Below are positions 1,952-49,520 of a stretch of DNA of 64,000 nt, one piece after another. How positions within the stretch are numbered: the first letter of the stretch is position 1; each line of letters starts with the position of its first letter. Made by a program: the position numbers and the translations under genes. The notes under the pieces were generated by a model, which was not told where the DNA came from, did no database searches, and was given only the letters and a program-made list of their open reading frames with translations. The stretch is from Paracyclopina nana (taxonomy: Eukaryota; Arthropoda; Copepoda; Cyclopoida; Cyclopettidae): the NCBI GenBank assembly GCA_019096065.1, contig JAGUCH010000003.1:4526001-4590000 (forward strand), written 5' to 3'.

Positions 1952-2170
1952 GATGGCCTCGATAATCGACGATTCGAAAAATGCGGCCGATTGCACCCAA
2001 GCTGAGCGAAGTATGAAGGAAGCGGAAGGCACAGCAGTAGAAGGCTGAGACTGCAGGGGCGGGTGCACTAACGCAAAAAAGAACAGAAGCAGAAACAAAG
2101 CAAGGGTTAGCGCCTTGCGCACACGCAATCGACTGCTGAGACAACAAGCGACGCGCGGCAAATTTAAACG

Positions 2171-5100
2171 TCATTGCGACAAATTTAGCGGGATGAGGTT
2201 TGAAATAGCCTCCAGGATTACCTTATGACCTTTTGAGTCTTCCGAGCAAATTTTCACTCTCGCGGTGCGGTTGATGCCATTTTTGTCATCTTGAATGTCA
2301 ATGATGATTCCTAAAGGCCACTGATGACGGTCAGTAAAGTGAGCTCTTGTTCTCACCAGCACTACATCTCCAGGCTGCATGTTTGCGGTCAACTTTCTCC
2401 ATTTGGGTCGTGAGCGCATTTCATTGAATACTGACTTGGTCCACTGGTCGAATAGTTCTTGCCTGAAAGCTTTCACTTTCCTATATTCAGGCACACTTAG
2501 GACGTTGTCATCGCTGCGAAATTGTAGGCTCGAATTACGAGATGTCATCAAGAAGGTTTTGGGAGTGATGATTTCTGCAGAGTCCTCAAAGGAATCGGCG
2601 ACGTATTGTATCGGCCTGGAATTAATAACGTCCTCTGCGACAGTCATAGCGGTTCTGAAAGTATCCTCACGCCAAGCTCTCGAAGCAGACAAGCCTAAGT
2701 GCTTCTTGAAGAGCTTGACAAAGATTTCACTGAGGCCATTGAACTCCGGGGCTGAGGCGGGAGAAAATGACCAAGAGAACTCACCATGTTTTGACGTGAT
2801 CTTTCGAATGTGTTCCCAGTCGATCTTTTTCAACTTCAAGGCATCTTCCTTGTACATGAGGCTGGCCGCTCCAACAAAGTTAGTGCCCTGATCTGACCGC
2901 ACAGACAATGGTGTCCCTCTTCTAGCGCAAAACCTGGTGAACGCATTTAGGAAGGCATCCGTAGAAAGATCGTATGCATCTTCCAAGTGGCAAGCCTTGA
3001 TTTGCTGACAGACGATTACGAGCACATATCGTTTATCTCTGCTCTGACCCCTAGCTCTTTTTATGTAAAATGGGCCACAATAATCAATACTGATATGGGC
3101 AAAGGGTTGAACTACGTTGCTGGGAATGGCAACTTCACCCATCTGGGGAAAAATGGGCTGACCCCTTAATTTTTGGCACTGCGGGCAAGACCTAAGGATC
3201 GTTTTCACTATTTGTCTCAATTTGGGGATAAAGAGCCACCTTCTAAGGAGCACAAGGAATTGATTCACCGTAATGGTGTGTCCATAATAGTTATGTAAAT
3301 ATTTCAAATATTGGACAACGGACGGACTTTTGCGAAGAAGAATTGGCCTGCGTGTTTCCCTGGGAATATGACTGACACTATCAATTCTGCCCCGTGCTCG
3401 AATCAAATTTTGGCCGCTAAAATACGCGCCTGATTTTTCTGGCTCGGACCCTATTCTCCAATGACCTTTTTTGACGAAAAAGTCAATGTCATCCTTCATA
3501 CATTCTGCCTGGAGCATCCTAATGAGGAGACGACGAGCCAGGACAAATTGAGCTCGCGGTCTTTTTTGACGAAGTAGAAGTCTAGCCAACAGGAGTACTT
3601 TTTTGGGCATGTCTGGGCGAACCGGGAAAATTGAGTGAACACTCAGCATGATTTTTGCACTGACCTTTTGATCCAGATGAAGGTCGAAATCCTCAGCAAA
3701 GGCTTGATCATCGAGTTCGGCAGATGTGCGTGCTTGCTGCCGGGTGACCGCGGCAAAGACTGCATTGGATCCCTCTTTCACAATGGCCGTGTTGACTGGG
3801 TCCAATTGAAGATCCAACCTGTCTGGAACGACTTCCAAGTCTTGGAGCCGATGAGGCCCCTGACGCCACAATGAGCTATCTTTGATGGTCTCGAGGCTGC
3901 CTCCTTTCGTGGCTAAATCTGCCGGATTTTCATTTGTGGAAATGTAGGCCCATAGATCCTGATCCCAGAGCTCAATAATTTCCAATAATCGTCGGGAAAC
4001 AAAGGGAATTGTCACTGCCATAGGCTTGTGAATCCAGCGAATTACAGTTACAGAATCTGACCAAAATCGGATTAAAGGGGAATCTAACTGCGAATGCAGA
4101 TGCTTGACAATAATTGCACCCAAATTTGCTGCCATTAGTTCCTTCTCTGGGATTGACCGTGCCCCTTTTTTGCATAGTTTTCTTTTACAAAGAGCAAAGT
4201 TGACGCGAATTTTGTTTGCCATAATTTCCCTTACATAAACTACCGTGGAATACATGCGGGAAGAGGCATCGACGAACACTTCCAGGCTCAACGTACTGGC
4301 AGCAGATAAGGAGAGTGCACGTGGCAATCTAATTTGTCCTATCAGTGATAATTCCACAATATAAACTTCCCATATCTTTTGCATTTCCAAGTTATCTATG
4401 GGGTCATCCCACCCCACAGGAGGATCCAGAAAACAGGCGTCTTGCAACATAATTCTCCCTTTCAAAGTGATTGGTTCGACAAACCCAAGTGGGTCGAAAC
4501 ATAAACCATTTGCTCTGAACAAATTCCTTTTAGTAAGTTGACTGTGCTCCGCGGTGAAAATCAACGGTTTGTAGGTGAGCATATCGCTTGAGGGAATCCA
4601 TTGGCAACCTAGGGCCTTAACTGACTGATCTACTTCGGGGAGATTTAACGGGGAGCTATCCAATTGCGAGCATACTTGCGGTGCGTTGGAGACTACTTTA
4701 CGTAGCTCCAGACCTGCCAGCGCACAAACTTTTCGAAGTTCCAGGAACAGGGCCAACAACTCCTCCCCCGAGTGCCTCGAGGGCAACAGGTCGTCCATGT
4801 ATAGTGACTCCCTGACGGTGGCAATCAAATGCGGATTTTTCGAATCCCTAAAGTGTGTGTTTAGGCAGAATAATGTTGCAAACGGCGCCGCTACATTGCC
4901 GAAAGGCCACCTAGTGAACTCGTATGATACACCTTTGAAAATGATGCGATGAAACTTGGAATCGCGGTCGCCAAGATGGAATTGGAGGTACATGCGAGCA
5001 ATATCGGAAGTTAAGGCATACTTACGCCGCCTAAATTGGAGCAGGACATCACGTATGTCATTCTGGAGTTTTGGTCCTGTCAAAATTGCATCGTTTAATG

Positions 5101-7075
5101 ATCTTTGGGGCGTGCCAAATTTGCGGGCACAGTCAGTGACCACTCGTAACCGCATTGTGATCGAATCCTCCCTGATGATTCCAAAGCACGGGATGTAGAA
5201 GCCGACTAGGCGATCACCCTGAACAATGCGTATGTAGCCCTCGCTGATCCATTCATCAAAGTTGGCGCAGTAAGCTGCCCACACTTCATCGTTCGTTTGT
5301 AGTTCAGCTTCATGACCGCCTTGCCATCTTCTGACCTGGTAGTAATTCCGAGGAAGATCAGGATCCTCAGGAAAATTGTGCCAAGGGACAGCTGTTCCAT
5401 AATGAAGGCCCTGCCTGAACAGTCCTCGACGAACAATATCCTCAGCCTTGTCGTCACACGCGCTTACGAGTCTTTTATTTGCGCCTAAGTCTGGTAGAGA
5501 TTCATATTCCCATAACTTTGCTAGTTTTTGCTCAACCCCCCAATGACACTTTGTGTCACAAACTGCTAACATATTATTGTCGTGAGTGGCGGAGCTACCT
5601 GCCTGGGCTAAAGTCCAACCTAAACGCGTCAGGCGAGCCACTGGTGCACCTAGGGGACCCTCTACATCGGCACTTAGAGCTGACATAAGGTCAACGTTAT
5701 CTAGCCCGATTAACAATTGACTGGGACCCTCGCAATAAGGTTGAAATGGGATGCCCTGCAAATGGGGATTATTGAGAATCAATTTAGTCAGGTCTGGAGG
5801 GTGGACTGCGGCCATGAAGTTGGCAGAGGTGTTAACCTCGATGGGCTTGATATGACCTGTAGAAATCGACCTAATGTACAAGGTTGATCTATAGCTGTGA
5901 ACCACCGCCGTACGATCTAGAAATCCTATAGTCTGGGTTTGAGGGGTTAACTTAGCTCCCATTGATTCCAAAAGACTTTCCTTAATGTAGCTCTCCCCAG
6001 CATGATCATCAAGACTGCAATTAATGCGATGGAAGTTGGCAAAATCTTTTGTTAACGACAAATCAACAGAGACTACGCGATATTGCGCCCTACTAGTAAC
6101 AGTGCATCCAAGAATGGACTCCGAATTGGAACTAGACTCGGTGTAACGGTGCAACAAGCTGTGGTGATCTTTATTGCAGATTGAGCACACAGATTTAGGT
6201 TGCGAGCATCCTGACGAAAAATGACGGCCTCCGATGCAATTGCGACACGTTTTGGTGCGATTTATGATTGTGTGCTTTATATCCAGGGGCAAGGAGCTTA
6301 GGATTGGGCACTCAAACATTTTATGCGCCGCGGTCTTTGAAGGCGTGTCGCAAAGCGGGCATCCCTGGTACACGCCATCTTCCGACACAATGGCCATCGC
6401 CAGGAGTGTGTCTTCCAGGATGTCATCGTAGCCATCATCCTCCCTTGCTGTGTTGATGGACATGACCTTGGAGTGGTTGGCCGTGGAACCTTTTACTCCT
6501 TCTTGCTTCTTTGCCATCATTTCTTGGGACTCGTCACGTTCCAAGTACGAGCACCAGCCCTGCCAATCATCAATTGTGGCCTCCTCGGAGATGCCTTTGG
6601 TCAATCGATACATCTTCCAGTGCCTCTTTGTTTCAGGCGCCATGCGGCTCGAAAAAAGGGAAACAATCATTTTTCCAACCTCCGCATACGCAGTCTTATC
6701 AGTATTGGCTAAAAGTTCCATTGCAGTGAATTTAACCCCGCGCAAAGTTCTCATATTGGACATGGAAATCTCCGACACGGTAAGCTTTGCCATCAATGCT
6801 CCCTTATGCGAGTCGATGCGGGCGTAATCATTTTCCAGAGTAAGAAGCCCTCTTAAGTAGCCCTCTTTGTTGGGGGAAAATAATTGGAAACAATCTCTTG
6901 CAGGGGGATCTAGGTTTTTCAGAAGCTCAAAATACTTTTCGTCCCAGCCATACTTTGGATTACGATGAACGACACATTCGAAGAGCTTCAAAAAGTTTTT
7001 AAACTCAATTACGTCCCTTCCCGAAACTTTTGGATGATGGATTTTTCTTTCCCTTGATTTGACTGGGGTCAACAA
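2171..7075 (-). CDS. pol: BEL/Pao Gag-Pol polyprotein: capsid-like, zinc knuckle, protease, RT, RNase H, integrase
   Basis: This 1634-residue ORF encodes a retrotransposon polyprotein acting in reverse transcription and integration. Domains in order: a DUF1759-type Gag segment (about 10-190), zinc knuckles around 239-309 (CRNC..H..C at 277-290), a Pao-type protease region near 335-420, reverse transcriptase with the first catalytic Asp at 691 (TSDIARMY) and YMDD at 759-762, RNase H (FVDASS, IPEKEL, FWSDS), integrase with an HHCC zinc region and a D,D,E core (SIDYCGPF, RSDQGTNF, EFNGLSE), and a DUF5641-like tail. The usual protease D(S/T)G triad reads DDH at 356-358, so protease activity is doubtful or unusual. 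The reading frame opens at a non-ATG codon just after a stop at 7079-7081, so translation probably enters from the gag frame. The family is certain; activity is not. Confidence 0.93.
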   Translation of the reverse strand: MLTPVKSRERKIHHPKVSGRDVIEFKNFLKLFECVVHRNPKYGWDEKYFELLKNLDPPARDCFQLFSPNKEGYLRGLLTLENDYARIDSHKGALMAKLTVSEISMSNMRTLRGVKFTAMELLANTDKTAYAEVGKMIVSLFSSRMAPETKRHWKMYRLTKGISEEATIDDWQGWCSYLERDESQEMMAKKQEGVKGSTANHSKVMSINTAREDDGYDDILEDTLLAMAIVSEDGVYQGCPLCDTPSKTAAHKMFECPILSSLPLDIKHTIINRTKTCRNCIGGRHFSSGCSQPKSVCSICNKDHHSLLHRYTESSSNSESILGCTVTSRAQYRVVSVDLSLTKDFANFHRINCSLDDHAGESYIKESLLESMGAKLTPQTQTIGFLDRTAVVHSYRSTLYIRSISTGHIKPIEVNTSANFMAAVHPPDLTKLILNNPHLQGIPFQPYCEGPSQLLIGLDNVDLMSALSADVEGPLGAPVARLTRLGWTLAQAGSSATHDNNMLAVCDTKCHWGVEQKLAKLWEYESLPDLGANKRLVSACDDKAEDIVRRGLFRQGLHYGTAVPWHNFPEDPDLPRNYYQVRRWQGGHEAELQTNDEVWAAYCANFDEWISEGYIRIVQGDRLVGFYIPCFGIIREDSITMRLRVVTDCARKFGTPQRSLNDAILTGPKLQNDIRDVLLQFRRRKYALTSDIARMYLQFHLGDRDSKFHRIIFKGVSYEFTRWPFGNVAAPFATLFCLNTHFRDSKNPHLIATVRESLYMDDLLPSRHSGEELLALFLELRKVCALAGLELRKVVSNAPQVCSQLDSSPLNLPEVDQSVKALGCQWIPSSDMLTYKPLIFTAEHSQLTKRNLFRANGLCFDPLGFVEPITLKGRIMLQDACFLDPPVGWDDPIDNLEMQKIWEVYIVELSLIGQIRLPRALSLSAASTLSLEVFVDASSRMYSTVVYVREIMANKIRVNFALCKRKLCKKGARSIPEKELMAANLGAIIVKHLHSQLDSPLIRFWSDSVTVIRWIHKPMAVTIPFVSRRLLEIIELWDQDLWAYISTNENPADLATKGGSLETIKDSSLWRQGPHRLQDLEVVPDRLDLQLDPVNTAIVKEGSNAVFAAVTRQQARTSAELDDQAFAEDFDLHLDQKVSAKIMLSVHSIFPVRPDMPKKVLLLARLLLRQKRPRAQFVLARRLLIRMLQAECMKDDIDFFVKKGHWRIGSEPEKSGAYFSGQNLIRARGRIDSVSHIPRETRRPILLRKSPSVVQYLKYLHNYYGHTITVNQFLVLLRRWLFIPKLRQIVKTILRSCPQCQKLRGQPIFPQMGEVAIPSNVVQPFAHISIDYCGPFYIKRARGQSRDKRYVLVIVCQQIKACHLEDAYDLSTDAFLNAFTRFCARRGTPLSVRSDQGTNFVGAASLMYKEDALKLKKIDWEHIRKITSKHGEFSWSFSPASAPEFNGLSEIFVKLFKKHLGLSASRAWREDTFRTAMTVAEDVINSRPIQYVADSFEDSAEIITPKTFLMTSRNSSLQFRSDDNVLSVPEYRKVKAFRQELFDQWTKSVFNEMRSRPKWRKLTANMQPGDVVLVRTRAHFTDRHQWPLGIIIDIQDDKNGINRTARVKICSEDSKGHKVILEAISNLIPLNLSQ

Positions 7076-37602: not shown

Positions 37603-37607
37603 TGATT

Positions 37608-37923
37608 TGTCACACGAGACTGTAAAATGCAAACAATAAAATGTGATCTTCTTACTTTGCAGGTAAGAAGCAGCGATGCGATCCTGAAACGAGGCTGCTC
37701 CTGTGGATCAGGAGAAGCAACCTGATGAACTAATGTATACTTGTCCTTGATATGTGATGAAAGAGAAATACACAAAGTCCCTGATACATAAAAGAGATGA
37801 TACTCCTGCGATGGCGGCAAATATACTGTATTTTATTGAGAACGGCATAAACATAATACTGAGCTATATAGAGATGTAAGGGGCTGCTGTAGAGCGACGT
37901 CCATCAGCTGGTGTCCTGCACCA
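37608..37923 (-). repeat. 3' LTR of element B
   Basis: TG...CA ends in the minus orientation. A TATATA box (37865-37870) is followed about 30 bases downstream by AATAAA (37832-37837), marking a short U3 and the R region. It appears to match the other LTR at every base. Confidence 0.95.
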
Positions 37924-37940
37924 TGTTCTGCCCCCTCCTC
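37924..37940 (-). other. Polypurine tract of element B
   Basis: Minus strand GAGGAGGGGGCAGAACA abuts the 3' LTR. This is the expected place and composition for the plus-strand primer. Confidence 0.75.
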
Positions 37941-37947
37941 GGTTGCC

Positions 37948-40900
37948 TCAATCTTGGTGGGGCTTGGCAGGGAGGCTACCGAGCGACAAACCGTTGGGAT
38001 GATCGGCCGTCATGATTTGGAACTTGCCTTCTTGAAAATCACAATAAAAGAACCTGATCCTTGCATTGATGGATATCCTGTAGAAGTGGAAATGCAGTAG
38101 TGCGGCGTACAAAAACTCCATTTGGAGTTGTGGCATCGGCTTGTCATGATGTATTGGTCGATGACCTAATTTGCCACACTCTTCGCAGCGATGCATTACC
38201 ACAGGACACAAAGACAAATTGTGGCCTCTCGCAAAACATTGGGGATAGACACAGATCTGTTCTAGCTCCAGGCAGGCAGGTGTTGGCTCAGAATGCCCTG
38301 AACTTCCACAATGAGAGCACGGATGGATTGTGTACTGTGTTCTTCTGAACAAGAGCCTGATGAGCGCCATGAAGTTGAGGCCCGATAAGGGGCCCACAAT
38401 CTTCTCCAACTCGATTGAGAAGGCCGCATCGATGCAATGAGGATCGAGAGCAGGTTGGCGCTCATAGTTGTCCAAAGATCGCACAATGGCATTGCCAGCG
38501 TTGAGAAAGGCTGAAGGGGCTTGAGGGTAGTAGCAGGATGCGTTTAGCATGCCTGGTTTTACAACCTCAACAGGGTGCCGCCCGAAGGGTGTTGGCATCA
38601 TCTTGTCAGACTTAGCCTGGACTCCAAACCTAGGCTGGCCCTCAGCCAAACAAAGCAACCAATGCACGAATGGCATGACGTTCGCGTCTTTGCCTAAGTT
38701 TGCTTGTTGCATGCACTTCAAGGCCAGTTTTACAACTAGGCCCTGATACGCATGATGGCTGACGATGACATATTTTTTCATTTTGACCGACCATTTGGAG
38801 TAGTCCTGGCTAAAGTCATCGACGTCTGGAAACAAGTGGGCGTTCACTCCTTCAACTTTCTTCGGTGTTAGAAGGCTGGCTGCTGTAGAGCGCTTGGATC
38901 CTTTTCTTGAGGCTCTTCTTGCTGATTTGTTCATGTAAGGAACAAATCCAGCTTTTGCTTGGTGGAGGAAGTAAGTCATGGAGTTCTGCATCTGGGCTGG
39001 ATCTTGGCCTGTCTGAGGGTAAGCGAGGATCACTAGATTTGACAGGTCCACCACGTTGACGACGGTGATTCCCAGTGTTTTTAGCCTCGATTCATTGACA
39101 ACTCCAAAACCCGTCTTGACCACTTGTTTTGTTTGGAGGACTCCCACCAGCTCATCTGGAATCTCACATTCAGGAGCGTAGCCTTCACCCAAGTAATTGG
39201 CGTGCACAACGAGAATCTTGTCAGTCATGGTGCCAAAGGAGATGGTTGTGAAACCATTCTCTGGCTCTCCTCTTGTTTGGCGATTGTCAAGCTGCGCCTG
39301 AGTCCACGGGGTGAAGACAATGGAGCATTTCTGATACCTGTGGATGTCCTTGAGGAAGTTGGTGTCATGGAGGATTTTCTTGATGTCTTCCTGAGGCGTG
39401 TCTTTATAGATGTTGTAGACATTGGCTGCAGCAGTAGTGCTGCAGTCAAATCTTCCTTTTCTCAGGTTTGCGTCCAGCTTCGCCTCTGATGCAGGATAAT
39501 GGGGCATCAATTGACTTTCGTCGTCCATAGGATGTAGATCCGAGGGGTGGATGACCGCCATATCAAATTTGCAAGGGTCGTGGTCACACTTGGCTTCTTC
39601 AGGAAAGTTGAAGAGAGTCTGAGTGTGGACCATTTCATCGTTGTCAGCCAAGTATTGGGCTTTGGGGCAGTTGTTGATGAGGAAGTGGGTGTTGTCAGCC
39701 TTCTCCGGATAGGTTGAGAATGGCCTTGTGCCCAGTGGGATCACTCCCTCATACGCGTCATCAATGACTTGTTGGCCTGGAAATGCTGCTTCTTGGAGAA
39801 CAGCTTGGGCCTCATCGGGATGCCTTGACAGGTAAGCCTTGAGCCTTTTGAGCAAGGTTGGCACGACCGGTGGATCGTCAGCTGAACCGAGGATGTGCAG
39901 TAGTGCCTTGATTGTTTCCAAGGCTGGATCAGCCATGGCTCGAGCTTGGGCTCCCATAACGATGCCAGTGGCAGCCCTCGAGATGCTCAAGAGGCGGTCC
40001 AAAGTGTCCTTGGCCATCAGCTTTTCAGCCTCTGACAAGGGTGCCAAATGGGCCGGAATTCTCAAGGACCCAACAATGTGATGAGTGTAGGCGGCTACGA
40101 TGAAGAATAACTCCTTGTGGGTGTGTGGCAAGACGCTGAATGGAGGATGACCGTTCATCAAGCAGGAGAGCCGATAGATCTCCCTGTAGACAGCTTGGAG
40201 TTGTCGGATGACAGCTCTTGGGTTGTCTTCGGCATCGCTGCCATAGTCAGCGGCCTCGCTTGCAATGAAGACATCGCCACGCCTGTAGAGGTCAGCCGAT
40301 TCTTCAGGATCCATTAGGAGGAGGTCGTTGTAGAACACACATGTCTTGACTCCGACCGTGGCTTTGATGTCAGCTTTGAAGGCTTCCTGGAGCCTTTTCT
40401 CCGTGGATTCCTGGGCACCTGAAGTAGCATTGAAATCAATATTAGAAAACGTTCGCATGATTGTTTCATTCCAAGCAGAAGGATTGATAATGTAAGTGTG
40501 AGCTAAAAGTTTGCTCAGAAGTGGATGGGGAATCTTTTTTTCCACAAGAATCCCGCTTTCTGCCCTGATTTCCCTGTCATCCCCACAATCAACTTCCATG
40601 ACGCTGGAGTCTTGGGAGGTCGCCGATGAGATCGACATGACCTCCATGTCTATGACTTTGCCATGGCAGCGCCAGCTTCCCATCCCCCCCTGGGACGCAG
40701 GAGTCCTTGGTACAATTGGAAGCTTGTTTTCGGTCAGGCTTTGCCAAGGAGTTTTGGCTTTACCCGAGCTTTTGCTCCTCTTGTAATGGGACCCCGCGCT
40801 CTCACTTTTGCTTCTTAACTTTGCATTAGAGGTTGATGGCTTTACAGCCCGACCTCGCTCTTTTTGAGATCGAGGAGGCTTCACAGCCAACTCGTCTCCT

Positions 40901-41046
40901 GAGCTAAAATCACAATTTGAATCAACCCCGACAATGAGCGCTTCCATTTCGATAGATTCTTCGGCAAGGGATTTTACACGGGTAATTTTGATACCTGACG
41001 TTCCTGGGGAGGGGGACGGCTCCCTTTTTTCTTCCTTGTTGCTCAT
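37948..41046 (-). CDS. Third ORF of element B: degenerate DEDDy exonuclease-like domain plus zinc clusters
   Basis: 1032 residues downstream of pol. Residues 1-160 are Ser/Lys-rich and basic; 170-450 are helical with no recognised family. About 570-785 follows the motif order of RNase D/WRN/EXD-type 3'-5' exonucleases: IVFTPW (575-580) where active enzymes have the FDxE block, ILVVHANYLG and LVGVLQTKQVVKTGFGVVNE (634-652) at the second block, VVNVVDLSNL, and YSKWS...YVIVSHHAYQGL (749-770) at the Y-x3-D block. The acidic residues are replaced (T, N and S/H), so it should not cleave. Three zinc clusters follow: CSHCGSSGH..C (910-925), C-x4-C-x4-H-x4-C (932-947) and CEECGKLGH..H (954-966). No signal peptide is visible, so it is not an envelope. 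A TTTGGTAG acceptor lies 12 bases before the ATG, so a spliced mRNA is plausible. The exonuclease relation is my inference. Confidence 0.75.
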   Translation of the reverse strand: MSNKEEKREPSPSPGTSGIKITRVKSLAEESIEMEALIVGVDSNCDFSSGDELAVKPPRSQKERGRAVKPSTSNAKLRSKSESAGSHYKRSKSSGKAKTPWQSLTENKLPIVPRTPASQGGMGSWRCHGKVIDMEVMSISSATSQDSSVMEVDCGDDREIRAESGILVEKKIPHPLLSKLLAHTYIINPSAWNETIMRTFSNIDFNATSGAQESTEKRLQEAFKADIKATVGVKTCVFYNDLLLMDPEESADLYRRGDVFIASEAADYGSDAEDNPRAVIRQLQAVYREIYRLSCLMNGHPPFSVLPHTHKELFFIVAAYTHHIVGSLRIPAHLAPLSEAEKLMAKDTLDRLLSISRAATGIVMGAQARAMADPALETIKALLHILGSADDPPVVPTLLKRLKAYLSRHPDEAQAVLQEAAFPGQQVIDDAYEGVIPLGTRPFSTYPEKADNTHFLINNCPKAQYLADNDEMVHTQTLFNFPEEAKCDHDPCKFDMAVIHPSDLHPMDDESQLMPHYPASEAKLDANLRKGRFDCSTTAAANVYNIYKDTPQEDIKKILHDTNFLKDIHRYQKCSIVFTPWTQAQLDNRQTRGEPENGFTTISFGTMTDKILVVHANYLGEGYAPECEIPDELVGVLQTKQVVKTGFGVVNESRLKTLGITVVNVVDLSNLVILAYPQTGQDPAQMQNSMTYFLHQAKAGFVPYMNKSARRASRKGSKRSTAASLLTPKKVEGVNAHLFPDVDDFSQDYSKWSVKMKKYVIVSHHAYQGLVVKLALKCMQQANLGKDANVMPFVHWLLCLAEGQPRFGVQAKSDKMMPTPFGRHPVEVVKPGMLNASCYYPQAPSAFLNAGNAIVRSLDNYERQPALDPHCIDAAFSIELEKIVGPLSGLNFMALIRLLFRRTQYTIHPCSHCGSSGHSEPTPACLELEQICVYPQCFARGHNLSLCPVVMHRCEECGKLGHRPIHHDKPMPQLQMEFLYAALLHFHFYRISINARIRFFYCDFQEGKFQIMTADHPNGLSLGSLPAKPHQD

Positions 41047-41198
41047 AATGGTCCGTTTCTACCAAACAAAATTTTCTTATTAATGAACTCCGATGATTTG
41101 CAAGATTTGCCGGAAGCTGCAGCGATTTAACGACAAATTAATGCGATTGCTGCAAATGAATTTTCGACAAACCGTTCACCGACAATAGCGACGAGCGG

Positions 41199-41216
41199 TT
41201 TTTTTTTTTTTTTTTT
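41199..41216 (-). repeat. 18-base poly(A) tract (minus strand) in the pol-ORF3 spacer
   Basis: An uninterrupted run of 18 T on the plus strand within the 419-bp gap between pol and the third ORF of element B. The gap is otherwise non-coding. Confidence 0.9.
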
Positions 41217-41465
41217 GTTCTTGAACCAGCGTTCCGGGTGATTGAAAAACAATACAACCTTCGTTGATGATGATGAAAAACGTTCTGTTTATTTTCCTTC
41301 AGCTGTCGCTCGCGCTAAAACTCAGTAGTTGAGCTGAGCTGCAGTAGTGCTAGGTTGCGTGGGAAAAATTCATAATGAGGGTTATTATCATAAAACTAAT
41401 AGCCAATACAGAAATCATTGATTAAAAAATATCTTTCTCTTCGAAGAGGCGTCGAAAGACCCTGT

Positions 41466-44400
41466 TCAGTTGAGCTTCGGTTGTGGCAGCTTCCTTTGGG
41501 ACCTCGTTCTCGTCGCCACAGGTCCATGGACAAAATCGTCTTCTTCTTCAGGCGGCAGGTACAAATTGGAAGCCTTCATCTCTGGCAACATGCTCTTTTC
41601 TTCATCGTCTTCAGACTGACATTCTTCATCCCAGGATGCATGGTACTCTTCTACAAGAGGGACCTCGTCGTCGATGTCATCACCAAGATCCCTTAGGTTT
41701 TGTATTTCATTTGAGACTCGAATGCGATCCTCTACAGGAGCTGAGTCTTCTTCTTCTATGATTGGCATAGGCAGTATGTGTTGTATTGGCCTCTCCTTGT
41801 ATCTGAAGGCCACGTATTCCTCTTTCTTCTTGTTGATCTCGGTGACGGCATATTTGACTATTACCCTTCTTACCAAGTTGTCGGCATTCCTATACACCTT
41901 TTCAATGGTTCCAAGCTGCCAAGTGCTTCTCGTGGAGTGCTTTCTTGGGTCAATCATGATGACAGGTTCTCCAACCTTGACACTGCGCACGAAGTCACGC
42001 CACTTTGGTAATTTTTGTACCCTGATGATATATCCTCTAATCCAGTAATTCCACAATTGTTGCAAAGACTTCTCCAGGACTGCGTACCTTTTTGGCAGTG
42101 TGTCAATGTCGTCAGGATGGATTGTAGGAAGTAGTTCCCCTCCTGGCCCCCTCGTGAGGAAATGGTTAGGTGTGAGTACGTGACCTTCCATTGTTGCAAT
42201 CGGTCTTCCATTGACAATTGACTCAGCACGTTTTGTGAATGTTCTGAAGTCATCGAATGACAATAGTGACTCACCTGCCACCTTGTACATGGCCTTTTTC
42301 CAATTTTTTATAGCCGATTCAGCAAGACCATTGCAGTTTGGGCCGTAAGGTGGCGCTAGTCTCCATTCAGCTACTCCAACTTCGTGGGCACTGGACCTCA
42401 AGTGGTCCCAATCAATGGAGCTTAGTTTTGCAACTAACTCTTCATGCCTAGGGTTGTGTAGTATTTCAGAGCGTACCTTTTTTAGATTGGCCCCTTGATC
42501 GCTTCTGATAAATTGTGGAACTCCCGTTCTTGCCGTCATTCTGTCCAAGGCATTCTTCAAAGATGTGGCAGTCATGTCCAGAACTACTTCTGTGTGTATG
42601 GCCTTAGAATCATGACAAAGGGCCAAGAACACCCACACTTTCATGTTGCCTCTATTGAACTTGATTTTGAATGGGCCTGCGAAGTCTATGGATATTCGTC
42701 TGAAGGGAAACATTTCTGAAGCGGTAACAAGAAAGTTAGAAGGCAGCGGTGCCATGACTTGTTGAGCAACTCTTGCCTGAGCTATGACGCATAGCCAACA
42801 GGTCTTACTTATTTGATGAAAAATTGGAGCTGCTCTCCTTACATAATATTTCTCTTGCAACTTTGATGCCATAGTTACCACTCCATAACCATGCCCCATT
42901 TCTTCATGGATTTGATTGCACACCTGGACTGCCAATGAATCTGGAATGATTAGGCGGCTTCTTCCTATCCAGGTGGGTTCCCCTTTGTACGTTCTACCTC
43001 TCATTCTCAATTCCCCATGCACTCCAATGAAGGCATTCAGGGCAGCTAGCTGAGAAACCTTGGGCCACTTTGAATGACTATATAAAAAGCGAAGCTCCGC
43101 TTCAAACTGTTGTTGTTGCAATATGCCTACCATGACACTTTCAGCTCTTGCTTGTTCAATAGGTCCTGGGACTACTCCCTCAACTGACAATCCCAGTTTT
43201 TTGCACGCAATCCTTCTCCATCTCAACAAGAACGAGTATTTTATGATTAAAGTTTTGTACCTGTACTTAGCTATGTTGATCGGCATTACTGCCTTTCTCC
43301 ATACCTTCCAAGTCAACTTTTGAATTTTTGACGGTATTAAGTGTTTAGGTACCTCATTGTCTCCTCCCTTGACAAAGATGGAGTTGACAAGCGACTCCTT
43401 TTCAGCAAGTTTTGTGGCCGCAATGTCGTCGTCGGTTAGCTCTAGAGGATCATTGGGGTAGTCGTCTTCTGGATCTAGGAGGAAATTTGGGCCTTTGAGC
43501 CAAAGGCTGTCTACTGAGAGTTGCTCAGCTTTGAGTCCTCTCGTAGGTTTGTCAGCAGGATACGAGGTTCCTTTTACATGCCTCCAAGGGTACATGTGCG
43601 TGAGCTCAAAGATTTCCGACACCCTCCTGCTCACGAACAACTTCCAGTTGCGGGCAGGTTTGGCCAGCCATGACACAACTACTCTTGAGTCAGTCCACAA
43701 ATAGACGCCCTTGATCTTGCTGTAGAGCGTGATGATGTGCACAGCCATCCTGGCCCCAAGAACAGCGCCCAAGAGCTCTTTTTCTGGAATAGACCTGGTT
43801 TCATTTAAGGGACATAATTTGAATCTTGCCATTATGATTGTAGAATCAACTGTGCCATCTGCATACTTGCAAACCATGTACGCACAGGCAGCATAAGCTG
43901 CATCACTCGCATCTGTGAAGACATGCAAAATGCGTGCCACTGTTGGTCCCTTTCTAATTGCTCTGGGAATTTGGATTTTTGTGATGTCATTGAGGTCATC
44001 TACAAATTCTCTCCATTTTTTCACTATTAACTTGGCGTCATCAGTATTGATGTCTTGAAGGCTGGTGTCCCATGCCAGATTCTGAGTGGATCTTAGCGCA
44101 CAAGCAGACTGGATCAACAGTTTCGCCGGAAGCATCACTGGGCTCACCAAACCTAAAAGATCAAACAAACGAGGAGTATACCTGACCATCAACCTAAGAG
44201 TCACCGGTTTTCCCTCAAAACTCTCATACGAAGGTTTTTGAAAGACGATCATATCTTCTTGTTGATTGATCCACATCCCAAGAGCTTTGGTGTCTTCCAG
44301 ATCTGTCTTAAGTTGGTACTTGGATGATCTCCAGTCTTCAGGAATGTGCTGTAGAGCAGACGGAATCGAGCACGTCCATTTCCTCAACGGCAGGCCTGCG

Positions 44401-45914
44401 TCACTCATAATTTCAATGAGATCTTTCGACACCTGTTGAAATTCTTCGGCACTTTCCACAGACGCGATCAAATCATCTACATAAAGGGATTTTTTGATTA
44501 AATCATAAGCCTTTGGCATCTTATCTTTATATTTTTCCGCATGAAGTTGGAGGCAGTAGATGGCCATGCATGGGGCGGAAGTGGTTCCAAAGGGCACTGA
44601 GCTGAACTCATATGCTTTGTCCTCCCAGGTGAACCTATGGAATTTTCGATCTTCTGGTCTTAACTTGAACCTGAGATACATTTTGCTAATATCTGCTGTG
44701 AAACAAACAGGATTTTCTCTAGCCATTAATATTATGTCCAAGCACTCTGTTTGTAATTTTGGTCCTGGCAGTAGTGCATCATTTAACGATTTTCCATCGC
44801 TGGATTTTCTTGTACCATCAAACACTATTCTGATGGGCATGCTTGGTTTGTCTAGTCGTTTGACCAAGAGCCATGCCAAGAATCTGCCAATTAAGAGATC
44901 GTCCTGTGGGCCTAGTATCCGAATAAACCCCAATTCCAGCCACTCAGCCAACTCCTGACAAGCTTTCCTATATGCTTTTTCACTCGTTTGTTTCAGCCTA
45001 CGCACTACTTTGTCAGTGTCTGTTTTGATTTCATAGTAATTTGACTTGAAACTCGGCTCCCCTGGTTTCCAAAGAGCGGGCACTACATATTCACCTGACG
45101 GCAATTGTATTGTCTGTGACAAGAGTTCAATGGCTCTTTGCTCATTGACACTAAGGGGTTTTTGAAAGTCTTTCGAGGAGTAGTCTTCTAAGGCATACAA
45201 GGCTTTAAGAGCTTCATACGGTGGCGAGTTGGCACAGCATTCGATACTTTCTGTAACTGAGGACACAATTAAAACCTTTTGACTAGTATGAGAGTATGAT
45301 ACCACATGGCCCAGCCTTGTTAACTGATAAACCGGGTCTCCAGGGTCATCTCCAGTAGTGGACTTGAGACAGCAAATGAGATTGAAGTTGTCCTGTCCCA
45401 CCAACATCTCAGGTGGTCCTGGAGCAAATGAAGGAAACTGAACTGTTTTCAAGTAGGGAAATTTGTCCTGGATTAGATGGACAGGAGGTAGCTTCATGTT
45501 GGGTTGTAGAACCGGCAACGTGCTAACTTGAATTTGATACTTCTCTTTAGGGTATCCTGGAATGTCCGCCACTGGTCTCATGTTAAGGATAACTGACCTT
45601 GACTGAAACTTTGCTCCTGTCCCCACGAACTGTAAGTTCTGGATTTCAGCGCTCCCTTCCAGGTTGAGTTTGTCTGCCACATTTTCTGTTATTAGGGTTA
45701 CCTCACTTCCAGTATCTAATAGAGCGTTGACCTTGAGCTCTTCACCAGGGTTCAAAGGATTGGCTAACAACACTGGAACAACTGGAAACATGACTTTTTG
45801 GTGGGAGGGCAAATTTATCTTTGGGGCCTTCTTTTTCTTTATTAAATGCAAACTCTTTTTTGAGTATACCTCATGTCCCTCCACCGCAGTAGTCGTCGAG
45901 ATGATGGAGGCCAC
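41466..45914 (-). CDS. pol: Pol polyprotein of BEL/Pao element B: protease, RT, RNase H, integrase
   Basis: 1482 residues as annotated; the frame is open upstream to the end of gag. Aspartic protease with DTG at 67-69 (VNALLDTGSEVTLI). RT with catalytic Asp at 408 (TADISKMY) and YVDD at 478-481. RNase H with FTDASDAAY, IPEKELLGA and LWTDSR. Integrase with HHCC (H..GHGYG...CWLC) and D,D,E (SIDFAGPF, RSDQGANL, CNGLAESA), then a DUF5641-type C-terminus and an acidic tail. All catalytic residues I can check are intact. There is no ATG at the frame start; pol lies in the -1 frame relative to gag and is best explained by frameshifting at 45959-45965. Confidence 0.96.
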   Translation of the reverse strand: MASIISTTTAVEGHEVYSKKSLHLIKKKKAPKINLPSHQKVMFPVVPVLLANPLNPGEELKVNALLDTGSEVTLITENVADKLNLEGSAEIQNLQFVGTGAKFQSRSVILNMRPVADIPGYPKEKYQIQVSTLPVLQPNMKLPPVHLIQDKFPYLKTVQFPSFAPGPPEMLVGQDNFNLICCLKSTTGDDPGDPVYQLTRLGHVVSYSHTSQKVLIVSSVTESIECCANSPPYEALKALYALEDYSSKDFQKPLSVNEQRAIELLSQTIQLPSGEYVVPALWKPGEPSFKSNYYEIKTDTDKVVRRLKQTSEKAYRKACQELAEWLELGFIRILGPQDDLLIGRFLAWLLVKRLDKPSMPIRIVFDGTRKSSDGKSLNDALLPGPKLQTECLDIILMARENPVCFTADISKMYLRFKLRPEDRKFHRFTWEDKAYEFSSVPFGTTSAPCMAIYCLQLHAEKYKDKMPKAYDLIKKSLYVDDLIASVESAEEFQQVSKDLIEIMSDAGLPLRKWTCSIPSALQHIPEDWRSSKYQLKTDLEDTKALGMWINQQEDMIVFQKPSYESFEGKPVTLRLMVRYTPRLFDLLGLVSPVMLPAKLLIQSACALRSTQNLAWDTSLQDINTDDAKLIVKKWREFVDDLNDITKIQIPRAIRKGPTVARILHVFTDASDAAYAACAYMVCKYADGTVDSTIIMARFKLCPLNETRSIPEKELLGAVLGARMAVHIITLYSKIKGVYLWTDSRVVVSWLAKPARNWKLFVSRRVSEIFELTHMYPWRHVKGTSYPADKPTRGLKAEQLSVDSLWLKGPNFLLDPEDDYPNDPLELTDDDIAATKLAEKESLVNSIFVKGGDNEVPKHLIPSKIQKLTWKVWRKAVMPINIAKYRYKTLIIKYSFLLRWRRIACKKLGLSVEGVVPGPIEQARAESVMVGILQQQQFEAELRFLYSHSKWPKVSQLAALNAFIGVHGELRMRGRTYKGEPTWIGRSRLIIPDSLAVQVCNQIHEEMGHGYGVVTMASKLQEKYYVRRAAPIFHQISKTCWLCVIAQARVAQQVMAPLPSNFLVTASEMFPFRRISIDFAGPFKIKFNRGNMKVWVFLALCHDSKAIHTEVVLDMTATSLKNALDRMTARTGVPQFIRSDQGANLKKVRSEILHNPRHEELVAKLSSIDWDHLRSSAHEVGVAEWRLAPPYGPNCNGLAESAIKNWKKAMYKVAGESLLSFDDFRTFTKRAESIVNGRPIATMEGHVLTPNHFLTRGPGGELLPTIHPDDIDTLPKRYAVLEKSLQQLWNYWIRGYIIRVQKLPKWRDFVRSVKVGEPVIMIDPRKHSTRSTWQLGTIEKVYRNADNLVRRVIVKYAVTEINKKKEEYVAFRYKERPIQHILPMPIIEEEDSAPVEDRIRVSNEIQNLRDLGDDIDDEVPLVEEYHASWDEECQSEDDEEKSMLPEMKASNLYLPPEEEDDFVHGPVATRTRSQRKLPQPKLN

Positions 45915-45955
45915 CGAAGCAATACGTTGATTTACTTTTCTTCGGTGGCGACTTA

Positions 45956-48900
45956 TTAGTTTTTTATCGCTGGGGACTGTTGTTCGGTTTTGACCGTGAC
46001 TGGTGTTGGTTTTGTTCCCGTAGCTGCAGAAGGCGTGCTAACCAATGCTGCCACGTGCTTGACTAGGCTGACCAGTTCCTTTTGTTGAGCTAGGAATTGT
46101 TCATTTTGTTCTGCCAGCTGTCTCGCCAATGTGTCTGCTTGAGACTGCTGCGAAGCGACGTCTTTGGTTTGGCCTACCTTTGACACATTCAAGTTTTCAT
46201 GAGCTGCGTGAAGGTAAGTGTTGTGCTCAGCGCTGCCGCATTTTGCACACTCCATTTTGGACTGACAATCTACCCTCTTATGCATCCCTCGAAGGCACCT
46301 GTAACAAGCATTAACCTTCCTGCAGAAGTAGAACCTACGTTTGTCATCCATTTGCCTAAAGGCTTGACATGCTGGCAACTGATGATCTTGTTTGCATGCA
46401 GGACACGTCAAGAAGGTTCTCATTTCATTTTGAGATATGCTCAAAACTATGGCTTCTGTGTTGTCCTCTTCTCCCTCCTCCACATAATCTGGTTCTACAA
46501 CCGGTAGCTCCTGGATGGACAAGACCGACTTGCTCTGAAAGCCTGCACTGCCTCGTGCATATGAAGGGGCTCGGTTTTCAAACTTTTTCTGCGGAAAAGA
46601 GTTATACGAGGAAACACTGAAGTTGGTACCTGAAGTGCTGGTCTTGCCTGTAGAGGCTGTCTTTGCCAAATTTTCAATGGTGGCATGGAAGTGCTGCTGC
46701 ACATTGATTTGGGCCCACTCATTGAAGGTTTCCAAGTTAAATGAAAACATCTTTTTCCCTGTGAGAAATGTTCTCACATGCTCCTTGGTTGCCTCCGTGA
46801 ACCTGATGTTTTGCATGACTGTCGCCGCATACGCTTTTTGTTCATTGCTCGTGAGTTGCCCCCTCGTACTCGCCCTGAGGTGAGACATGAACGATCGAAT
46901 GTGGTTTCTGACAACCTGAATTGTCTCCTTTTTCATCATATCCACAGGGGGCATACCTAGCAGCTTTGTGTTTGCATAAAGTAAAAGTCTTTCGGTGTTA
47001 CCGTATTCGTCATCCAACGCTTGGAGGGCTTGCTTGTACCCTTCTTCTGTGCGATCAACAAACCTCACATGCTCGTAGGCCGGCCCATCCTTAGTGGCAT
47101 GCCTTAATCTCATGAGCTTTTCTTTAGTCTCCATCTGCTTGTCCTTGTGCACCAATATTTTGAAGTCTTCGCGAAAGTCAAAGTACTCCATTTCGTCATA
47201 TCCAGTAAAAACAGGGTTTTTGATGCTCTCAAACTTGATTGCTTTTGGTTTTTGCAAGCCGGTGGTACTACTACCATTACTATAGCTAACATAGGGTGAT
47301 GTTGATGATTCCCTGGAGCTTCTCCCCCCGTTGGAGTCATCATCCGATGAATCCGACCAGAACTTCTTGTTGGGATCTTTTGGTGGCTTACCTGGTGGTT
47401 TTCCTGGCGGTAGACCTCCTTTTTTCGGATTGTCATCATCACTGCCATCAGATGACGAGGGGTCACCTTTATCAGGAACATTTCCTCCACCATTTCCTGT
47501 TGGAGCCACCACATACGCTTTCAATTCTTCATCAAACACCAGCTTTTTGTTGTCTATCGTGTACTTGATCTTGTTGTCTTCGCTTGGTGAATAGAGATCC
47601 TGAAGCCTGGGATGAAACGAGACTGGCCTTTTTTCTGACTGATTGTAGGCTTTGCCTCTCATAATTTGACGTAGATGAGATTGAACCGTGTTTTCCTGCG
47701 TTAGAATTAGGTCTAAAGCCACACGAGCTTTTCTTAATACCTTGTTGTAGTTGAGGTCATGTGTGTCCAATTCTTTGGCTGCTCGTGGATCTACATCCAA
47801 CAGATCATTCCATTCTGATTGGTACACCGCCAAGGCCCCTTCCAACGCAGTGATGCACGTCCCAATTTGAGTTGAAGGTTCATTGTTTTGTAATGCAGTT
47901 TGAAGCCTTGAGACACGTTCATGAAGCTTGTCTTTCGTGTCTCTTACTGCCTTTTCCTGAGGGGTAATGGTTCTTTTGGTATTAGTACCTGAATCTTTGC
48001 ACTGCAAGGAGGTGCTTGGTGTGGCTGAATTGCTAGGGCCTGGCGTAGCTGACTTGCTAGGTGAAGTAAGGAAGGTGGTTGCCTCTGGATTGACTGACTG
48101 TGACTGGTTAGTCATGGATGCCTTTTTTGCTTGTGCCAGGTCTCTCGCAAAATTGGACTGGTAGCCTTCCTCATCTGTGTCCGGGTCATTAAAGCTGAGA
48201 CCTCGCACTAATTCATCCACCTCCTTGTCAGCCCTGGCCCTCTCCTCTGCACTCTGAACACGGTTGGCCAGCTTGTTAAACTCCTTATCCAATGCGACGT
48301 CAGCATTGGCTTTCTGTTCCTCAAGAGTGGGAGAAATAGATTGATTGGCTAACCTGTGTTTTTCGATGTAGTTGGCAAAGGATGTCTGAACCGCCTGCAT
48401 GCAAGTTTGAACTTCCTTGGCGAGTGCTTTGAGGGCAGCAATGTTGTCAGTTTTACTGGCTCTTACTTGCGCTCTGACCTTTTTGCATAAGGCATCTGCA
48501 TTTTTGAGTTCGGTTGCAAAACCTTGTCGCGAGTCAGTGGCAGCTTTCTGCTTCTGTTGCCTTGCCAGCCTCTTTTTCTTTGTTGTCTCCGGCGACGTGT
48601 TGTCCCCACCTACTGTGGTTATGGTGCTGCTTGAAGTGCCTGTATTTGTCGAACCTGAGGCCGAACTATTGGTGTTGAGGGCACTACTGCCCGCTCCACT
48701 TGGTGGTTCCGCATTGCCATCCATGTTGAGATTTTCCTGAAAAACTTGGTCACTCAACGAAACACTTATCAAATCACCTGTTATTGGCGTAGCCCCCTCG
48801 TTGCCCTCATTGGCTCTGAAAATGTACTGCCTGAAATCGTTGTTGTGGTGACGCGTGTCATCAAGGTTAGGGCTTGATTCCCTTCGAACGGGTGTCGCAA

Positions 48901-49126
48901 GTGTTGAGGGCGACTGCGTCAAATCCCAGTCTAAGACATTGCCAAACCTTGATCCGGCCAGCGGCACATTATTTGACGGAACTTCATTCTCCACGTTACG
49001 AAACGGTGTCAACTTTTCAGCTTCCACATGTGGAGGTAGTCCTCTAATTCGACCACTTCTTCTTAGGTGCGTGACAGGCGTGTCACCAATCTGCATCTGG
49101 GCAGCGATGCCATTCAACCCTGACAT
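45956..49126 (-). CDS. gag: Gag polyprotein of BEL/Pao element B
   Basis: 1056 residues. A Thr/Ser-rich and Lys-rich N-terminus with long coiled-coil-like helices (about 180-530), a Gly/Asp/Pro-rich linker (PPGKPPGKPPKDPNK), a DUF1759-like capsid region (about 640-820: YDEMEYFDFREDFKILV, EHVRFV), and C-terminal zinc knuckles CPACKQDHQLPAC, CYRCLRGMHKRVDC and CAKCGSAEHNTYLH. A Gln/Leu heptad-like tail ends SPAIKN. It assembles the particle that houses reverse transcription. Its last two sense codons and the preceding base form a -1 slippery heptamer. Confidence 0.92.
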   Translation of the reverse strand: MSGLNGIAAQMQIGDTPVTHLRRSGRIRGLPPHVEAEKLTPFRNVENEVPSNNVPLAGSRFGNVLDWDLTQSPSTLATPVRRESSPNLDDTRHHNNDFRQYIFRANEGNEGATPITGDLISVSLSDQVFQENLNMDGNAEPPSGAGSSALNTNSSASGSTNTGTSSSTITTVGGDNTSPETTKKKRLARQQKQKAATDSRQGFATELKNADALCKKVRAQVRASKTDNIAALKALAKEVQTCMQAVQTSFANYIEKHRLANQSISPTLEEQKANADVALDKEFNKLANRVQSAEERARADKEVDELVRGLSFNDPDTDEEGYQSNFARDLAQAKKASMTNQSQSVNPEATTFLTSPSKSATPGPSNSATPSTSLQCKDSGTNTKRTITPQEKAVRDTKDKLHERVSRLQTALQNNEPSTQIGTCITALEGALAVYQSEWNDLLDVDPRAAKELDTHDLNYNKVLRKARVALDLILTQENTVQSHLRQIMRGKAYNQSEKRPVSFHPRLQDLYSPSEDNKIKYTIDNKKLVFDEELKAYVVAPTGNGGGNVPDKGDPSSSDGSDDDNPKKGGLPPGKPPGKPPKDPNKKFWSDSSDDDSNGGRSSRESSTSPYVSYSNGSSTTGLQKPKAIKFESIKNPVFTGYDEMEYFDFREDFKILVHKDKQMETKEKLMRLRHATKDGPAYEHVRFVDRTEEGYKQALQALDDEYGNTERLLLYANTKLLGMPPVDMMKKETIQVVRNHIRSFMSHLRASTRGQLTSNEQKAYAATVMQNIRFTEATKEHVRTFLTGKKMFSFNLETFNEWAQINVQQHFHATIENLAKTASTGKTSTSGTNFSVSSYNSFPQKKFENRAPSYARGSAGFQSKSVLSIQELPVVEPDYVEEGEEDNTEAIVLSISQNEMRTFLTCPACKQDHQLPACQAFRQMDDKRRFYFCRKVNACYRCLRGMHKRVDCQSKMECAKCGSAEHNTYLHAAHENLNVSKVGQTKDVASQQSQADTLARQLAEQNEQFLAQQKELVSLVKHVAALVSTPSAATGTKPTPVTVKTEQQSPAIKN
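45959..45965 (-). promoter_or_regulatory. -1 ribosomal frameshift heptamer A AAA AAC at the gag stop
   Basis: In gag frame the end reads ATA AAA AAC TAA (stop 45956-45958). The heptamer A AAA AAC is in the correct X XXY YYZ phase, and a -1 slip enters the open pol frame at CTA ATA AGT. This is the canonical arrangement for retroelement Gag-Pol fusion. Confidence 0.85.
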
Positions 49127-49174
49127 TCACTGACCTAGTTTGGCCTCGCTCCTCGTCTCATTTGCGTTGAACGA

Positions 49175-49194
49175 GCCCCGAAAGTTGGGCGCCA
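49175..49194 (-). other. Primer-binding site of element B
   Basis: Minus strand TGGCGCCCAACTTTCGGGGC begins five bases inside the 5' LTR. The first 11 bases are the same as in element A. I cannot name the tRNA with certainty. Confidence 0.75.
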
Positions 49195-49199
49195 GAACA

Positions 49200-49515
49200 T
49201 GTCACACGAGACTGTAAAATGCAAACAATAAAATGTGATCTTCTTACTTTGCAGGTAAGAAGCAGCGATGCGATCCTGAAACGAGGCTGCTCCTGTGGAT
49301 CAGGAGAAGCAACCTGATGAACTAATGTATACTTGTCCTTGATATGTGATGAAAGAGAAATACACAAAGTCCCTGATACATAAAAGAGATGATACTCCTG
49401 CGATGGCGGCAAATATACTGTATTTTATTGAGAACGGCATAAACATAATACTGAGCTATATAGAGATGTAAGGGGCTGCTGTAGAGCGACGTCCATCAGC
49501 TGGTGTCCTGCACCA
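49200..49515 (-). repeat. 5' LTR of element B
   Basis: 316 bp, apparently identical to 37608-37923. TATATA at 49457-49462 and AATAAA at 49424-49429 on the minus strand; it drives the element's transcript. Confidence 0.95.
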
Positions 49516-49520
49516 TGATT

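Follow-up and report, generated by a model that had tools for sequence, protein, structure and literature searches.

A BEL/Pao retrotransposon of the cyclopoid copepod Paracyclopina nana carries, after gag and pol, a third open reading frame (ORF3) whose product very probably contains a degenerate exonuclease domain of the DEDDy type. The element lies in a 64,000-nucleotide stretch of contig JAGUCH010000003.1 (assembly GCA_019096065.1, positions 4,526,001 to 4,590,000 of the forward strand), referred to here as the window. The same genome holds a sister family of ORF3s, here the intact family, in which the catalytic residues lost from the window family are retained. The best explanation of the data as a whole, to which we assign a probability of roughly 0.6, is that ORF3 encodes a dead exonuclease that serves as a cofactor of the element's ribonucleoprotein (RNP).

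A third reading frame with a dismantled metal site

The element has the structure of a BEL/Pao long terminal repeat (LTR) retrotransposon, with identical LTRs of 316 bp and a short target duplication, AATCA. As the two LTRs are identical and AATCA stands on both sides, the insertion is probably recent. Its pol shows the domains of a BEL/Pao polymerase, matching Peptidase_A17 (1e-34), DUF5641 (6.6e-13) and RVT_1 (2.1e-11) above the Pfam cut-offs; its matches to a protease and an integrase zinc domain fell short of these. ORF3 is free of stops over its 1032 codons, follows gag and pol in the same orientation, and ends 24 bases before the 3' LTR. A preliminary description made from the sequence alone had proposed an intact third frame of this length in a BEL/Pao element, and this is what we found, on the minus strand and bounded by LTRs. 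The features of the element are as follows.

37608..49515, minus: BEL/Pao LTR retrotransposon (gag, pol, ORF3), from identical terminal repeats, target duplication and Pfam matches of gag and pol
49200..49515, minus: 5' LTR, 316 bp, TG...CA, from terminal-repeat comparison
37608..37923, minus: 3' LTR, 316 bp, same sequence as the 5' LTR, from terminal-repeat comparison
49516..49520, no strand: target-site duplication AATCA, copy 1, from sequence
37603..37607, no strand: target-site duplication AATCA, copy 2, from sequence
45956..49126, minus: gag, 1056 amino acids, with DUF1759 and a CCHC-CCHC-CCHH zinc array at residues 908-973, from Pfam and sequence
41466..45914, minus: pol, with reverse transcriptase (RT), Peptidase_A17 and DUF5641, and weak protease and integrase zinc matches, from Pfam
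37948..41046, minus: ORF3, 1032 amino acids, the subject of this study, an open frame
41110..41133, minus: 24-nucleotide element upstream of the ORF3 start, present in several divergent copies, from copy comparison
39757..40389, minus: ORF3 residues 220-430, conserved N-terminal domain of unassigned fold, common to the intact family, from hhalign (96.0% over 103 columns)
38647..39381, minus: ORF3 residues 556-800, probable DEDDy-derived domain, from hhalign
39307..39324, minus: ExoI block, residues 575-580, with V577 and T579 instead of D and E, from family alignment
39043..39147, minus: ExoII block, residues 634-668, acid retained as E652, from family alignment
38737..38802, minus: ExoIII block, residues 749-770, Y759 retained and S763 instead of D, from family alignment
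38146..38325, minus: ORF3 zinc array CCHC, CCHC, CCHH, residues 908-967, from Cys and His invariant in 13/13

The copies were sought in the window's own genome (92 Mb in 10 contigs). The ORF3 search covered the best 44 of 215 candidates, and the family count is as such a lower bound: at least 45 rows, including the self match, at 44 places and with 23-100% identity, of which 44 were free of internal stops. A long frame that is also matched by the window pol lies upstream of ORF3 in 12 of 15 fetched 10-kb stretches; in the remaining three, pol was fragmented (L020), was not recognised (L019), or was represented by a frame with a pol-like end as judged by eye (L017). Some BEL pol copies, for example those at C6:1409829 and C2:11243795, had no counterpart among the scored ORF3 rows; they came from a pol search covering the best 32 of 562 candidates. 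Related pol frames of 2489-3016 amino acids occur at C2:6057150, C2:13193097, C1:7177626, C3:6041074 and C1:12049985, and their length suggests gag-pol fusions in sister elements.

The preliminary description had also placed three exonuclease blocks in ORF3 and held that their acidic metal ligands were substituted. The blocks lie where it had put them (ExoI 577-579, ExoII E652, ExoIII 759-763), and the substitution holds for ExoI and ExoIII and not for ExoII. At the ligand columns of the intact family the window ORF3 has V577, T579, E652 and S763, with Y759 at the ExoIII tyrosine, so that the D-x-E of ExoI and the Y-x3-D of ExoIII that characterise PF01612 are absent, and the ExoII acid is present. 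The same pattern is seen across the family, whose alignment comprises 13 sequences and whose ligand columns were read in 15 loci. None of the 15 has an acidic residue at the ExoI D or E or at the ExoIII D, and every one of them still has the ExoII acid, as Glu (9) or Asp (6). Since E652 is retained, three of the four ligands are lost. An alternative register for ExoIII, judged by eye, likewise places no Asp at the ligand position in the window family.

Such a pattern might be expected if the protein were still a nuclease with a rebuilt active site, comparable to the active-site switch that the title of PMC2628886 names for Maelstrom. The universal ExoII acid is consistent with this, as are the ExoIII tyrosine column, which holds Tyr, His or Phe in 15/15 loci, and further domain residues invariant in the 13 aligned sequences, among them C574, W581, D667 and W752. 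However, the ExoI pair and the ExoIII acid are gone from every locus read, and a new shared active site looks unlikely because the replacement residues vary among loci; we consider a rebuilt nuclease quite improbable.

An intact sister family and the link to DEDDy exonucleases

The window ORF3 on its own is not recognised as an exonuclease. It had no DEDDy match in Pfam, and likewise none of the 13 family members matched PF01612 above its cut-off. A PDB sequence search with the window family gave no sensible match, and an NCBIfam scan of four proteins gave none. Neither the window ORF3 nor the intact-family alignment found a match in a set of 5.8 billion proteins (best 7998 / 8000 word-sharing candidates), and scans of viral contigs with both family alignments returned 24 and 21 pattern matches and no relatives. 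In the protein set and the viral contigs, then, no relatives beyond the animal's own genome were found, which may reflect these collections and the scoring of best candidates.

The connection was instead made within the genome. A search with PF01612 gave 22 matches, consisting of ordinary host genes and long frames, mostly of 1000-1200 amino acids, and those long frames that were read form the intact family. These ORF3s follow a BEL/Pao pol in 4/4 cases checked, and have the same N-terminal domain and zinc array as the window family. By hand count, 41 intact-family loci were found at E <=1.3e-41; residues were read in 12 of them, and all 12 retain D-x-E, D and Y-x3-D. The catalytic columns read D, E, D, Y, D in 9/9 aligned members. 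One intact-family locus, L029, has a frame that is interrupted in the stretch from ExoII to ExoIII. At E values up to 10, PF01612 was matched by six of eight aligned members (best 0.00059), and its curated Pfam cut-off was passed by four loci, one only jointly with neighbouring matches. In the PDB sequence search the intact family gave weak matches to WRN (E 0.16) and EXD2 (E 1.1), and matches to zinc-knuckle proteins from 0.00062.

The two families are clearly related in hhalign profile comparison, at 99.9% over 715 columns for the whole ORF3, 96.0% over 103 columns for the N-terminal parts and 99.1% for the domain only. When compared with nine cellular DEDDy sequences (host genes L024, L025, L027 and L028 and five of 13 proteins, six of the nine being EXD2-like), the domain of the intact family reached 97.6% and that of the window family, residues 556-800, 87.6%, consistent with similarity of both to cellular members of PF01612. 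In 150 column shuffles for each family none reached the true score (45.1 for the window family, against a shuffle maximum of 27.1), and with reversed profiles the values fell to 0.2 and 0.6%. Nine windows were taken along the alignment of the window family. The three overlapping the domain up to ExoII gave 53.7, 87.9 and 87.6%; the remaining six stayed at 0.1-0.4%, and one of these, 701-946, has ExoIII without ExoII. Windows away from the ExoI-ExoII part gave <=3%, except for 601-846 of the intact family, with ExoII and ExoIII, at 93.8%. Two intact-family proteins, P0004 and P0005, moreover match several window-family or intermediate loci directly over the ExoI-ExoII part, for example the place of L021 (1.3e-7) and that of L046 (5.6e-8). 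The exonuclease likeness put forward in the preliminary description was therefore borne out by profile comparison.

Several points weigh against this assignment. The hhalign E-values hold for one comparison and not for a database. The match of the window family to the cellular sequences comprises 68 columns around ExoII, with ExoI and ExoIII outside, and because the cellular comparison misses these two blocks their assignment rests on the alignment with the intact family. The window ORF3 itself was not among the matches listed for P0004 and P0005, though several members of its family were. A one-sequence structure model of the window ORF3 had a mean predicted local distance difference test (pLDDT) value of 32.7, too low for a fold to be read from it. 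When the cellular sequences were compared singly, the six EXD2-like ones gave 83-96% with the intact family and 37-86% with the window family, and the other three, an Rrp6-like gene and two other host DEDDy genes, gave nearly nothing (0.1-3.1%). It could be argued that the DEDDy resemblance is due to chance or convergence, since in Pfam, in PDB and in the large protein set the window ORF3 alone had no match to a DEDDy family, but the profile scores with their negative controls and the direct matches from intact-family proteins to window-family loci make this very improbable. The apparent DEDDy relationship is visible only by profile comparison and by way of the sister family.

As far as sequence can tell, the nearest kin among the nine is EXD2-like, a label that for L025 and P0007-P0018 is our own; the host loci L026, taken as MUT-7-like, and L030 stood outside the nine. 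This bears on the possibility that ORF3 is a decoy. A dead domain resembling a 3'-5' trimming enzyme of the host (Nibbler/MUT-7, or an EXD1 partner) would then tie up that enzyme's partners or sit on guide-RNA 3' ends, thereby weakening silencing of the element. The homologous class does include silencing factors, and several DEDDy genes are present in the host genome. However, the best match among the sequences compared was EXD2-like, in a comparison that excluded the MUT-7-like L026, and an intact sister family is hard to account for as decoys, so that we think a silencing antagonist unlikely. The preliminary description thus stands in its catalytically degenerate DEDDy-type domain with zinc clusters in a BEL/Pao ORF3; a special kinship to MUT-7, and the decoy, RNA-binding and packaging roles that it had raised, are conjectural.

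In midpoint-rooted trees, with 24 rows for ORF3 and 16 for pol, the two catalytic states fall on opposite sides of one branch with 100/100 support. Inner branches of the pol tree are very long, 6/13 of them are weakly supported, and the tree contains only four intact-family pols. Because the cellular relatives have the ligands, it is simpler to assume that these were lost on the branch leading to the window family. At C5:3522253-3523539 lies a 997-residue frame that is matched by an intact-family protein at 1e-16 and is absent among the scored window-family rows (best 44 of 215); it may be intermediate in its ligands.

Maintenance, zinc knuckles and exchange of ORF3

Near copies are under purifying selection. 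In the pair L009/L010 the ratio of nonsynonymous to synonymous rates (dN/dS) was 0.071 for ORF3 (910 codons) and 0.080 for pol, and in the intact pair L039/L040 that of ORF3 was 0.087 at a synonymous divergence (dS) of 1.3. In five of six pairs the first 165 residues vary more than do the domain and the zinc array, the exception being L009/L010, with few changes. From the dN/dS of near copies and this regional constraint we conclude that the inactive domain is maintained. Counting the other way are the pair L012/L013, with a dN/dS of 0.285 and hardly any changes, the saturation or near-saturation of synonymous sites in the other ORF3 pairs, and the small number of changes in the L009/L010 domain (9 synonymous, 4 replacement).

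The Cys/His clusters noted after the domain in the preliminary description are well conserved, with 13 Cys/His positions across residues 908-967 invariant in all 13 aligned ORF3s. Their ligand order, CCHC-CCHC-CCHH, is that of the C-terminus of the element's own Gag (residues 908-973). The spacing of the first two knuckles differs from Gag in the window family and is Gag-like in intact-family L042, L034 and L033, and the ORF3 and Gag arrays gave profile similarities of 63 and 81%. Kinship of the ORF3 array to Gag is on this basis no more than suggestive, which counts as a further point against the cofactor reading. The Gag-like array could also be taken to favour a structural second Gag, mainly a capsid-associated or assembly protein with the DEDDy domain as scaffold, which would also fit the Gag-like size of the protein and its large conserved N-terminal domain. 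Set against the window gag, however, the N-terminal part and the core of the window family gave profile similarities of only 0.5 and 1.0%, and a structural second Gag is, in our judgement, a rather poor candidate. Descent of ORF3 by duplication of Gag was rejected, the resemblance being confined to the knuckles.

A position after pol is also that of the envelope gene in other three-gene LTR elements. In a hydropathy scan of 24 ORF3s, however, the position of the top peak shifted from one to another; the peak of the window ORF3 (1.78) lies inside the domain, the highest of any ORF3 (1.98, L023) is likewise in the domain, and pol itself reaches 1.80. An envelope-like protein is thus hardly credible, and Env identity was rejected for want of a transmembrane segment, on this simple scan only and with no dedicated membrane predictor.

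In seven family loci, near copies uncounted (the window, L012/L013, L014, L015, L016, L020 and L021), the ORF3 start is preceded at a distance of 42-73 nucleotides by an element of 24-25 nucleotides, TCGYYAAATCR...CTTCCGG, in intergenic DNA that is otherwise diverged. This element was not present in this form in L009, L011, L018, L022 or L023; TTCCGG alone was present in 10/12 loci. The pattern was defined after inspection of the sequences. An exact form of it had seven matches in the genome, at least five of them before ORF3s, and the reversed control had none. The element may serve ORF3 as a promoter, as a leader or in splicing. Between L014 and L015, nucleotide identity is 76-98% along pol and falls to 56-71% just before and throughout ORF3, a step from about 85% to about 60%, and because identity drops at this junction ORF3 looks to have been exchanged between elements.

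The window contains a second BEL/Pao element, with the following features.

2171..7075, minus: gag-pol frame of the second BEL/Pao element, from frame and domains
2..2161, minus: ORF3 of the second element, N-terminal part, the frame running past the window edge, from the family hidden Markov model (HMM)

This ORF3 matches the family HMM at 1.5e-62 when read across the window edge and at 1.7e-12 for the inside part. It is strongly diverged and by eye lacks the ExoI acids, with the same order of zinc ligands. Another gene in the window combines a Tube Death domain with a kinase. Elsewhere in the assembly, contig C1 starts (L051) with a CCTGG-type satellite and contig C2 (L052) with degenerate CCTAA telomere-like repeats. 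These repeats, TTAGG being a motif linked to arthropods, and the Tube Death domain gene both fit an arthropod host.

Known exonuclease ORFs and a proposed role

It has been reported that LTR elements of bdelloid rotifers, Juno and Vesta, carry a DEDDy ORF3 (Rodriguez, Kenefick and Arkhipova 2017, PMC5408684). In the parts of that paper available, this is likewise an extra ORF after pol with RNase D-like DEDDy kin, common to different element types, and a Cys-His-Cys motif is noted in the ORF3 of Vesta2/5. The window element shares with these a DEDDy-related ORF after pol. The catalytic residues differ: the invariant residues of the bdelloid ORF3s are described there as intact, with DEDD changed to DEED, and those of our sister family are intact in 9/9, whereas the window family has lost three of its four ligands. 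The available text has no whole-word mention of BEL or Pao, and the likeness to the Juno and Vesta ORF3s is by description only. DnaQ-like 3'-5' exonucleases are described as a well-known accessory domain of LTR elements in PMC6338049, which cites three papers, including Rodriguez 2017, for exonuclease and chromodomain; Pao is absent from its available text, and inactive forms go unmentioned in those passages on LTR-transposon polyproteins. DEDDy ORFs have further been reported from Athena/Terminon retroelements (PMC6431247), which resemble the present case in bearing a DEDDy 3' exonuclease and differ, in the passages available, in being giant, many-ORF elements of rotifer telomeres (PMC6431247) and Penelope-like (PMC5408684). 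Among cellular proteins, the EXD2-like exonucleases of PF01612 gave the best profile match of the window domain among the nine compared, and the six aligned have the ExoI D-x-E and ExoIII Y-x3-D, unlike the window family. In the open-access literature searched, no BEL/Pao element came up as a carrier of a DEDDy ORF3. As DEDDy ORF3s are known elsewhere and none was found for BEL/Pao, what is new here is the occurrence in a different element superfamily, and probably in a different group of animals, together with an inactive lineage maintained beside an intact one.

Inactive nucleases that retain a binding function have precedents among host proteins. EXD1 and Maelstrom have been described as inactive DEDD derivatives that retain RNA binding (PMC5408684), and the PXL module of PML-1, a pseudo-nuclease by its keywords, binds single-stranded RNA and DNA (PMC12934764). 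In the passages available, these resemble ORF3 as inactive nuclease folds reported to bind RNA or DNA and differ in not being on mobile elements; they too are likened by description only.

We propose that three parts make up ORF3: a conserved N-terminal domain, a 3'-5' exonuclease domain of the DEDDy type, probably of EXD2-like kinship and with a dismantled metal site, and a Gag-style zinc-knuckle array. An ancestral BEL/Pao lineage would have carried ORF3 as an exonuclease, and catalysis would have been lost once, on the branch leading to the window family. The dead fold may have been retained since it still grips the ends of single-stranded RNA or DNA, and the zinc knuckles may bring the protein to the RNA or complementary DNA (cDNA) of the element. 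A fold that grips and knuckles that recruit would together make a non-cutting RNP cofactor, acting in end protection, chaperoning or packaging. Nucleocapsid-like knuckles and a dead nuclease fold both point to such a cofactor, and we think it probable that ORF3 functions by binding nucleic acid; that it protects ends specifically is a good deal more doubtful.

A broader scenario, which we put forward only tentatively and hold to be less likely still, is that the BEL/Pao elements of this animal have domesticated an EXD2-like exonuclease as a standing accessory gene, with cutting and non-cutting lineages coexisting in one genome and trading ORF3 modules, and with the non-cutting protein capping the element's RNA or cDNA at the 3' end or shielding it there from host exonucleases. 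If true, this would be a viral-style counter-defence carried by a retrotransposon.

The function of retrotransposon exonuclease ORFs was left undecided in the bdelloid study, as far as its available text goes (PMC5408684). Here a single genome contains many divergent ORF3 copies in two states, with ligands intact or lost, and with purifying selection in near pairs of each. These copies form a natural comparison, and therefore features that are conserved in both lineages are not catalysis. A dead ORF3 maintained in this way would add a retrotransposon case to the pseudo-exonucleases that have been retained for a non-cutting role.

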